A program made the translations under genes and the position numbers. Below, one piece after another: positions 38,245 through 41,041 of a stretch of DNA of 64,000 bases; the first letter of the stretch is position 1, and each line of letters opens with the position of its first letter. Source of the DNA: Sulfurihydrogenibium azorense Az-Fu1 (GTDB lineage Bacteria > Aquificota > Aquificia > Aquificales > Hydrogenothermaceae); NCBI RefSeq assembly GCF_000021545.1, contig NC_012438.1, forward strand, positions 990,003 to 1,054,002, read 5' to 3'. The notes below the pieces were generated by a model. It had not been told where the DNA came from and did not search any database. It worked only from the letters and a program-made list of their open reading frames with translations.

Positions 38245-38781
38245 TTGAATAAGTTAGAGCAGATTGTTGAAAGAATTTTGTGGGAATCAAGGTTGATGGT
38301 TGTATTTTCTGTTATAGCTTCAATTTTGGCTGCTTTTATATTAGTTATAATGGGAACTTACGACATTTTACTTATTTTCAAAGAACTTTTTCACGCTTTT
38401 TCAGATCAAGAGATTTATGAACAGTTTCATAAAGATGCAATTACCCATATAATAAGTGCGATAGATGCATATTTAATATCTACGGTTTTACTTATTTTTG
38501 GAATAGGGCTTTATGAACTTTTCGTAAGTAAAATTGACTATGCAGAAAAAGATACAAGGTCTTCTAAAATATTAATTGTACACTCTTTAGACCAGCTTAA
38601 AGACAAATTAGCTAAAGTGATAGTTATGGTTTTAATCGTTACATTTTTTAAACACGCAGTTAAATACAGTTATGAAGAAGTTTTAAACTTGCTATACCTT
38701 GGAATTGGAATATTTTTAATAGCACTGGCTATATATTTATTAGCTAAACCCCACGAAGCTCACAAAAATGAGGAGCATTAA
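38245..38781 (+). CDS. yqhA: YqhA/UPF0114 family membrane protein
   Basis: 178 aa with four predicted membrane helices (about residues 18-40, 65-88, 118-140 and 147-165). The N-terminal ILWESRLMVVFSVIASIL and IDAYLISTVLLIFGIGLYELF match the UPF0114/YqhA pattern. The function is unknown. The start is TTG with GGAGG 8 bp upstream. It is followed 2 bp later by the copper ATPase locus, so it may be co-transcribed with it. Confidence 0.82.
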   Translation: MNKLEQIVERILWESRLMVVFSVIASILAAFILVIMGTYDILLIFKELFHAFSDQEIYEQFHKDAITHIISAIDAYLISTVLLIFGIGLYELFVSKIDYAEKDTRSSKILIVHSLDQLKDKLAKVIVMVLIVTFFKHAVKYSYEEVLNLLYLGIGIFLIALAIYLLAKPHEAHKNEEH

Positions 38782-38783
38782 AG

Positions 38784-39131
38784 ATGAAAGACATAGTTGT
38801 TTTATTAACTTCTTTAACGTTAGTCTCTGGTATAAGTTGGTTTTTTTTCTCAAAAGATAAAAAGAAAGAAGAGGAAAATCAAGAATCAGGAGAATTAGAA
38901 AAGCTTGAAGTTAACATATCTGGAATGCATTGTGCTGGATGTGCAGCTGGAATAGAAGCCACTTTAAAAATGGTTAGTGGAATAAAGTATGCAGCTGTAA
39001 ACTTTGCAACCTCTAAAGGAGAGTTTTTATACGACCCATCAAAGATAACAAAACAACAGATAATAGAAAAAATAAAAGAGTTAGGTTACGATGCATCAAT
39101 TGATTTAGAAAGTTTTGAAAAAAAAAGTTAG
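38784..39131 (+). CDS. Short product of copA: membrane-anchored HMA metal-binding protein
   Basis: The 115-aa product of reading straight through in frame. An N-terminal hydrophobic helix (about residues 3-21) is followed by a Lys/Glu linker and one heavy-metal-associated domain with GMHCAGCAAG (Cys about 50 and 53). It ends at TAG two codons after an A9 run. In Escherichia coli, frameshifting in copA yields a short copper chaperone of the same kind. Here the short form would be anchored or exported by its N-terminal helix. It could instead just be the first piece of a broken gene. Confidence 0.7.
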   Translation: MKDIVVLLTSLTLVSGISWFFFSKDKKKEEENQESGELEKLEVNISGMHCAGCAAGIEATLKMVSGIKYAAVNFATSKGEFLYDPSKITKQQIIEKIKELGYDASIDLESFEKKS

Positions 39132-41041
39132 AAGAAATTTCATCTCTTAGAAAAAGAGTTTTAATTTCCCTTTCTCTTTTTATAGTTGTAGTCCTATCAA
39201 TGTTTTTCCATTTTTATTACTCAGATTATCTACAGTTTTTAACAGCTTCTATTATCCAGTTTTACGCTGGTTATGAGTTTTATAAGTCTTCTTTAAAGTC
39301 TTTAAAAAATAGAATAGCTGATATGAATCTCCTTGTCAGTATTGGAACCTTTTCAGCGTACTTTTACTCTGTAGCTGTTTTATTTTTCAAGGACTTTTTT
39401 CCAGTGGAGATGAGACATCTTTACTTTGAAGGGTCTTCTGCTGTTATTACATTTGTTTTAATTGGTAGATACTTAGAACTAAAAACAAGGCAAACAGCAA
39501 CAGAGTTTATGAAAAAACTAATCTCTTTAAAACCAGATAAAGCAATAAAGTTGGTAGATGGAAAAGAAGAGGTTGTAGATGCAGTATCTATTAAAAAAGA
39601 TGATATCGTAATAGTAAGACCGGGGGATAAGATACCTGTTGATGGAGTTGTGATAGAAGGGCAGACTGAAGTTGACCAATCCATCTTAACAGGAGAGTCA
39701 AAACTCTTGTATAAAAAAGAAGGAGATACAGTTTTAAGTGGAGGTATAAATAAATCCGGACTGATTAAGATAAAAGCTATAAAAGATGCAAAGGACAGTA
39801 TTTTAAACCAAATTATAAAGCTACTTCTTGAGGCTCAGTCTAAAAAGCCTAAGATAGGAAAACTTGCAGATAAGATAACTGCTTACTTTGTTCCAGTTGT
39901 TTTAATTATATCAATTTTAGTTTTTGATGTATGGTATTTTTTAGGTTATCCACTGAATTTTTCTTTAACAGCTGCAATTTCTGTTTTGGTTATAGCCTGT
40001 CCCTGTGCCTTAGGACTTGCAACTCCTATAACAATTGTAAATGTTGTTGGAAGAGGTGCAAAAGAAGGACTTCTTTTTAAAGACCCTGAAGTTATAGAAA
40101 AGTCAGAAAAAATAGATTATGTGATTTTTGACAAAACAGGAACATTAACAGAAGGAAAGATGAAAGTAGAGGAGTATTTAGTTAAAGACTTTCTTTCTGT
40201 GTTTGTATCTTTGGAAAAAGGTATAAATCATCCTGTTGCCCAAAGCATTTTACAGATTCCATCTCAAGAGGTAGAGATTAAAGACAAACAGGTAATAGTT
40301 GGTAAAGGTGTTGTAGGGACTTACAAAGGTATTAAGGTTATCATGTGTAATAAAAAATTTTTAGATGAGCTTAATATTCCTTTAGAAAAAGAGTTTGAAG
40401 AGTTTTACCTAAAAAGTAAAGAAAAGGGAAATACAGTTATCTTTGGAGTTATAGATAGTAAAGTTTATGGAGTTTTTTCAATATCAGACAGTGTAAGACC
40501 AGAGAGTAAAGAAGTGATAAAAACGTTAAAAAACAAAGGCATAAAAGTTGTAATGCTTACAGGAGACAATCAAAAGGTTGCAGAAAAAGTAGCTAAAGAA
40601 GTAGGTATAGAAGAGTTTTACTATGACTTAACTCCCATCGATAAGTATAACTTTATAAAAGGTTTAAAAGAAAAAGGTTTTACGGTTGTGTTTGTAGGAG
40701 ATGGAATCAACGACGCTCCATCTATGGTAGAGAGTGATATAGGAATTGCAGTTGAGACAGCTTCAGATTTAGCAAAAGAATCAGGAAGTATAGTACTTTT
40801 AAAAAGTGATTTAAGAGGAGTAGTAAAAGCTATAAACTTGTGTCAAAAAGGCTTAAAAACTATAAAACAAAACCTTTTTTGGGCTTACATCTACAACATT
40901 ATAGGTATTCCTATAGCAGGTGGGCTACTTTATCCGTTTTTTGGTATTCTTTTAAATCCCATGTATGCGGGAATTGCAATGAGTTTTAGTTCTATAACTG
41001 TTGTTCTAAATGCTTTAAAGTTAAGGTACATCTCTATCTAA
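38784..41041 (+). CDS. copA: P1B-type copper-transporting ATPase, expressed by -1 frameshift
   Basis: The ATPase frame is open upstream of its first ATG (39200) and continues the HMA domain once the frame moves by -1 at the A9 run 39118-39126. The join reads ...SFEKK-KLEEISSLRKRV, with a normal first helix after it. ATG 39200 has no ribosome binding site and would cut that helix. Motifs: actuator TGES in QSILTGES, metal site CPCALGLATP, phosphorylation DKTGTLTEG, HP-type GINHPVAQ, hinge GDGINDAP. The product is about 752 aa. CPC and the HMA suggest Cu(I) export. Confidence 0.85.
39118..39127 (+). other. Slippery A9G sequence in copA
   Basis: Nine A then G, read in the zero frame as GAA AAA AAA AGT TAG. 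A one-base backward slip on AAA AAA gives AAG TTA GAA and joins the HMA to the ATPase. Polymerase slippage on the A9 run would have the same effect. Confidence 0.75.

Follow-up and report, generated by a model that had tools for sequence, protein, structure and literature searches.

A locus in Sulfurihydrogenibium azorense Az-Fu1 raises the question of how a copper pump can be made from a gene, copA, whose metal-binding (HMA) domain and ATPase lie in different reading frames. The locus was analysed within a window of 64,000 nucleotides of the chromosome, to which the coordinates of the feature list refer, and was compared with the S. azorense genome (single contig, 1.64 Mb) and with related genomes. 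The reading favoured here, at a probability of about 0.68, is that copA of the Hydrogenothermaceae is a programmed-recoding gene in which RNA polymerase slippage would give both a short HMA form and the full pump. The features on which the argument rests are as follows.

38245–38781, plus strand: gene for a UPF0114 membrane protein, upstream of copA and ending 2 nt before it.
38784–39131, plus strand: short product with N-terminal membrane helix and HMA domain; zero-frame ORF of 115 aa plus TAG.
38790–38864, plus strand: predicted N-terminal membrane helix, residues 3–27, then a Lys-rich stretch; from hydropathy and a predicted helix of low pLDDT.
38910–39092, plus strand: complete HMA domain (PF00403), residues 43–103; from the PF00403 match and the predicted fold.
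38931–38942, plus strand: CAGC metal-binding motif, C50 and C53; invariant in the alignment.
39116–39118, plus strand: TGA closing the ATPase frame upstream, read from the sequence; 0 codons of this frame are open above the match.
39118–39126, plus strand: A9 run, the putative slippery site; zero frame G-AA AAA AAA A-GT, −1 frame onward AAG TTA GAA.
39129–39131, plus strand: zero-frame stop TAG, 2 nt past the A9 run; 2–8 nt past it in all A9 orthologs.
39125–41041, plus strand: P-type copper ATPase body in the −1 frame, with CPC, DKTGT, TM7 N-x6-YN-x4-P and TM8 M-x2-SS; from domain models and motifs.
39200–39202, plus strand: earliest ATG in the ATPase frame, within its first hydrophobic helix; from translation and hydropathy, with ATG at the same codon in genera g1 and g7 only.

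The sequence-only reading of this DNA had placed the two domains in different frames, and this was borne out. The 115-aa ORF occupies the zero frame, the −1 frame is open for 640 codons (39119–41038), and the two overlap at 39119–39131 only. Because the overlap is confined to the A9 region, a protein spanning both domains must switch frame there, by a net −1, within the A9 run or its two next bases. The sequence at 39110–39131 is AAGTTTTGAAAAAAAAAGTTAG, with zero-frame codons GAA AAA AAA AGT TAG. As had been proposed, zero-frame reading stops two codons past the run (AGT TAG) and gives a short protein with a membrane helix and HMA domain (TM-HMA), ending about ten residues beyond the HMA domain with the C-terminus EKKS. 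The ATPase frame, also as proposed, is open upstream of its first ATG at 39200 as far as the run, where the TGA at 39116–39118 closes it. The fused product would be 752 aa long, with one extra N-terminal helix.

Both parts were assigned by domain searches, structure prediction and motifs. The PF00403 match in the 115-aa ORF covers positions 2–62 of 62 (E 6.8e-16), and structure prediction of the short form gave the beta-alpha-beta-beta-alpha-beta order at pLDDT above 90. The N-terminal membrane helix previously noted was recovered by hydropathy and as a low-pLDDT predicted helix at residues 3–27; its residues S10, G16 and F20–F22 are invariant in the ortholog alignment, as is GMHCAGC in the HMA domain. 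The ATPase frame matches the copper-translocating P-type ATPase model TIGR01511 with 581 bits (cut-off 397), together with PF00122 (E1-E2 ATPase) and PF00702 (HAD), and its best solved relatives are the copper ATPases 7r0g, 3j09 and 3rfu. Cu(I) ATPases are marked by CPC in TM6, N-x6-YN-x4-P in TM7 and M-x2-SS in TM8; CPCALG, NLFWAYIYNIIGIP and MSFSS were found in the translation. Domains, model score and signature motifs together identify the frame as that of a predicted PIB-type Cu(I) ATPase (CopA).

The split arrangement is a property of the family. A TM-HMA ORF with a short open frame was found in 31 of 41 family genomes, covering 8 of 10 genera, and no relative of it at E ≤ 1e-15 was found elsewhere in the phylum. 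The 28 ATPase frames recovered at full length are open for 637–665 aa versus about 755 if fused, and a fused HMA-ATPase frame was present in 0 of the 31 Hydrogenothermaceae genomes. The run is exactly A9 in 30 of the 31 (the 28 full-length orthologs, L115 of genome G007 and a degraded copy, L039). The sole exception is A8 in a draft metagenome-assembled genome (MAG) with 7% contamination (UWMA-0248; G041; L116/L132; G041:C196; DTZN01000196.1), which could reflect either misassembly or genuine variation. The comparison of run lengths that the sequence-only reading had called for thus yielded neither unrelated lengths nor a single-frame relative. Among named contigs (Sulfurihydrogenibium, Persephonella and Hydrogenothermus), 18 of 19 carry A9, including that of the isolate S. 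yellowstonense SS-5. The junction mostly reads GAA AAA AAA AG[TC] TAG, with the variants AGC AGT TAR, AGC TCT TAA, AGG AAA GGA TAG and AGA TAG past the run. An exact-pattern search of the S. azorense genome with GAAAAAAAAAG was unspecific and returned 4 matches. Among relatives from other phyla, HMA and ATPase share one ORF in 47 of 49; the two split cases, L147 and L185, have no poly-A at the junction.

Two irregular copies were recorded along the way. L039 (G055) has a normal A9 junction and 15 stops in its ATPase frame, probably because of poor sequence; its genome is rated 55% complete. A metal P-type ATPase from another family of the order (L021, G031:C1:935374-937134) carries one in-frame TGA, possibly a selenocysteine codon or a frame break.

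Codon usage at the run indicates that the nucleotides themselves are retained. In all 28 of 28 aligned frameshift products the columns GAA AAA AAA AAG hold a single codon each; at other invariant Glu/Lys columns away from the run (n = 10), both synonymous codons are used in every case. Were the codons chosen independently, log10 P would be −12 for GAA AAA AAA alone, a figure that overstates the case because the sequences are related by descent and the 28 are not independent tests. The ortholog tree nevertheless spans 7.29 amino acid substitutions per site, with genera grouping as under vertical descent, and the family products are as little as 46% identical (median 54%). The A9 codons are retained even in L009, which prefers GAG and AAG (28% GAA, 41% AAA), and GAA stands at the run in GAG-preferring members of genera g7 and g3 (GAA fraction 0.28 in L009 and 0.34 in L010). 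Elsewhere such runs are depleted: the AT-rich 64-kb window has 2 A9 runs versus 22.3 expected from shuffles, pattern searches of the 1.64 Mb genome returned 25 matches, and counts of homopolymer runs drop steeply beyond length 6.

The sequence directly past the run is read as protein in the ATPase register. Over the 63 nt following it, the three codon positions show pairwise mismatches of 0.49, 0.29 and 0.55, and in the codon alignment the motif EKKKLE..LRKR runs smoothly over the junction. Both halves are under protein constraint. With a conserved slip-prone site, a frame change and both frames constrained, recoding as such, whatever its agent, is close to certain. That the split has been held across so divergent a family supports a functional need for a short HMA product.

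The proposed mechanism would operate as follows. The DNA frame would encode a short membrane-anchored HMA protein ending 2–8 nt past the A9. RNA polymerase would slip on the run, and transcripts that had gained one A (or lost two) would join HMA and ATPase into a frame encoding the 752-aa Cu(I) pump with its extra N-terminal helix. One copA gene would then supply the pump along with a protein that is probably an anchored copper chaperone or metal buffer, and the extent of slippage would set their ratio. We infer the polymerase slippage, the product ratio and the chaperone function from sequence comparison.

The −1 frameshift at A9 proposed by the sequence-only reading stands in that a net −1 shift is needed and conserved; a ribosomal agent for it fares less well, as the evidence leans to the polymerase. 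Slippage by RNA polymerase is considered likely, and likelier than a −1 slip of the ribosome, because the run has slippage length, no conserved RNA structure accompanies it, the stronger ribosomal heptamer A_AAA_AAG is unused and A9 is exchanged for A10 in a second gene (see below). Selection against A/T runs appears at length nine in many bacterial genomes, and slippage is efficient at that length (PMC1088944, PMC5009743). As a homopolymer of at least 8–9 nt that is depleted elsewhere, the run in copA fits the description of a transcriptional slippage site.

The most serious rival is a programmed −1 shift by the ribosome at A_AAA_AAA, in which tRNA-Lys(UUU) would move back by one base and pair again, unaided by any strong stimulator. 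The heptamer, listed among those implicated in frameshifting (PMC3711429), is in phase in all A9 orthologs, and a stop codon follows close behind the run. The S. azorense genome has 39 tRNA genes, the number also given in PMC4227106, and only tRNA-Lys(UUU) for lysine, the condition under which E. coli ribosomes slip at A_AAA_AAG. Against this, A_AAA_AAG, the heptamer favoured in E. coli, is synonymous in the zero frame and used in 0 of 28 orthologs. No conserved downstream RNA structure was detected in windows of 40–120 nt (mean z −0.4 to −0.8) by a simple scan that a pseudoknot or a clade-specific element could escape, and no obvious Shine-Dalgarno-like element was seen upstream of the run in the orthologs. 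The A9/A10 exchange in the second gene also fits polymerase slippage better. Ribosomal slippage is accordingly judged unlikely, while ranking well above the remaining alternatives.

The second gene emerged from a screen of other A9 sites in S. azorense. It encodes a CCA/poly(A)-type tRNA nucleotidyltransferase (G000:C1 around 1138438; L059, L196; relatives L197–L225) with PF01743 and PF12627, and with an HD domain in Persephonella-type copies. In 22 family loci an A9 interrupts the gene and the same −1 shift is needed; 4 loci (L202, L206, L216 and L221) have A10 at this position and encode the protein in one ORF. The split point separates the catalytic/RNA-binding part from the C-terminal part. 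Retention of the homopolymer, with alternation between A9 and A10 templates, is expected under polymerase slippage, because either template yields both products, and it is the strongest pointer to that mechanism. The nucleotidyltransferase is therefore probably a second programmed polymerase-slippage gene, judging from its sequences, and the A9/A10 comparison in it makes polymerase and ribosome slippage directly distinguishable by experiment. A broader proposal is that the Hydrogenothermaceae use polymerase slippage at A9/A10 family-wide, splitting modular genes (at least copA and the nucleotidyltransferase) into short and full-length products, with the template changing between A9 and A10 in the course of evolution without loss of either product; this is given slightly less than an even chance. 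The ratio of short to full product may depend on copper or on growth conditions.

Most A9 runs in the screen lie in frame within ordinary ORFs, among them what we take, from reading the translations, to be an Mfd-like helicase and an alanine-racemase-like enzyme. Slippage at A9 must hence be tolerated there or be modest. Two further sites were noted. At L062 (G000:C1 around 1224124) an A9 ends a 290-codon frame, for which no Pfam match at E ≤ 0.001 was obtained, and another frame of 101 codons carries on; a further frame transition, a pseudogene or a phase-variable gene are possible. At L065 (G000:C1 around 1521981) the frame of an NtrC-like regulator stops 13 codons past an A9, within or just after the AAA+ region, and the DNA-binding part of the regulator is possibly encoded in a different frame.

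The locus could also be read as encoding two separate proteins, a standalone chaperone from the HMA ORF and an ATPase translated from a start of its own, by internal initiation or re-initiation. Coupling through overlapping ORFs is common (PMC3711429), and some orthologs have purine-rich sequence past the run. Such initiation would need a start codon, and none in the ATPase frame is conserved across the orthologs, whether before or at the first ATPase helix. Several genomes lack a start for 66–80 codons of this frame (80 in L037 and L038), so that re-initiation would be unable to give a complete ATPase in those genomes. Conservation as protein of the frame right past the A9 also speaks against separate proteins, which would moreover leave the invariant codons at the run without an explanation; this alternative is very improbable. 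Least credible of all are phase variation by replication slippage, sequencing error and gene decay. Homopolymers are indeed error-prone and serve phase variation in other bacteria (PMC3711429), and one MAG has A8 and L039 has its 15 ATPase stops, but such processes would yield fused genomes (A10 or A7) where 0 of 31 are fused, independent assemblies agree, both halves are under protein constraint, and the same split with A9 recurs across family genomes and named contigs when 47 of 49 relatives in other phyla are fused.

Under polymerase slippage, the preferred reading, copA can be set beside known recoded genes. E. coli copA relies on a different slippery heptamer plus an RNA structure. It is a case of programmed −1 ribosomal frameshifting (Meydan 2017 and Drees 2017, as cited in PMC9548414 and PMC5009743), in which the zero frame encodes an 834-aa pump and the shift gives the 70-aa chaperone CopA(Z) (PMC5009743). 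The analogy drawn by the sequence-only reading applies insofar as one gene would give a short HMA protein and a full Cu(I) pump through a −1 change just past an HMA domain, and most genomes here are likewise without a separate copZ. It fails in polarity, because the zero frame encodes the pump in E. coli and the short form in the Hydrogenothermaceae. The latter also have an A9, no conserved structure that was found, and a membrane helix on the short form. The gene therefore resembles E. coli copA in its predicted outcome; with reversed polarity, another heptamer and no structural stimulator found, its place in the same mechanism class is at best tentative.

By mechanism, the closest counterparts of copA appear to be the two-ORF poly-A dnaX genes. 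Transcriptional slippage at A9/A10 is described for dnaX of Thermus thermophilus and for two-ORF, Chlorobi-type dnaX (PMC1088944, PMC3711429). A run of 9–10 A and two products from one gene are shared features, and in the two-ORF genes, too, in-frame reading yields the short form and the long one depends on slippage. The gene and lineage are different, and Thermus has two tRNA-Lys (PMC5009743) whereas S. azorense has the UUU isoacceptor only. In mxiE of Shigella flexneri slippage is also required for the longer protein (PMC1088944); that case differs in having a U run in the mRNA and in encoding a transcription activator, and the part of the source dealing with it proposes no second product. 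A literature search, with most subscription journals outside its coverage, returned no report of a split copA in Hydrogenothermaceae. The chaperone-plus-pump form of copA, encoded by one gene, has apparently arisen a second time in this family, with opposite polarity and a different slip signal. Gene callers are expected to miscall Hydrogenothermaceae copA as an HMA protein and a truncated ATPase.

The short product is a candidate copper chaperone. In 29 of the 31 copA-bearing genomes no HMA domain other than its own exceeds the Pfam cut-off, and no separate copZ of the HMA family was found in those 29, which leaves it as the sole copper chaperone candidate from that family there. Compared with CopZ, it has the complete HMA fold and the CxxC motif, carries in addition the predicted membrane helix, and does not reach the cut-offs of the CopZ equivalog model. 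Its sequence suggests a membrane-anchored copper chaperone or buffer. A UPF0114 gene similar to the one at 38245–38781 lies directly upstream in about 14 copA orthologs, and a functional link between this gene and copper export is possible.
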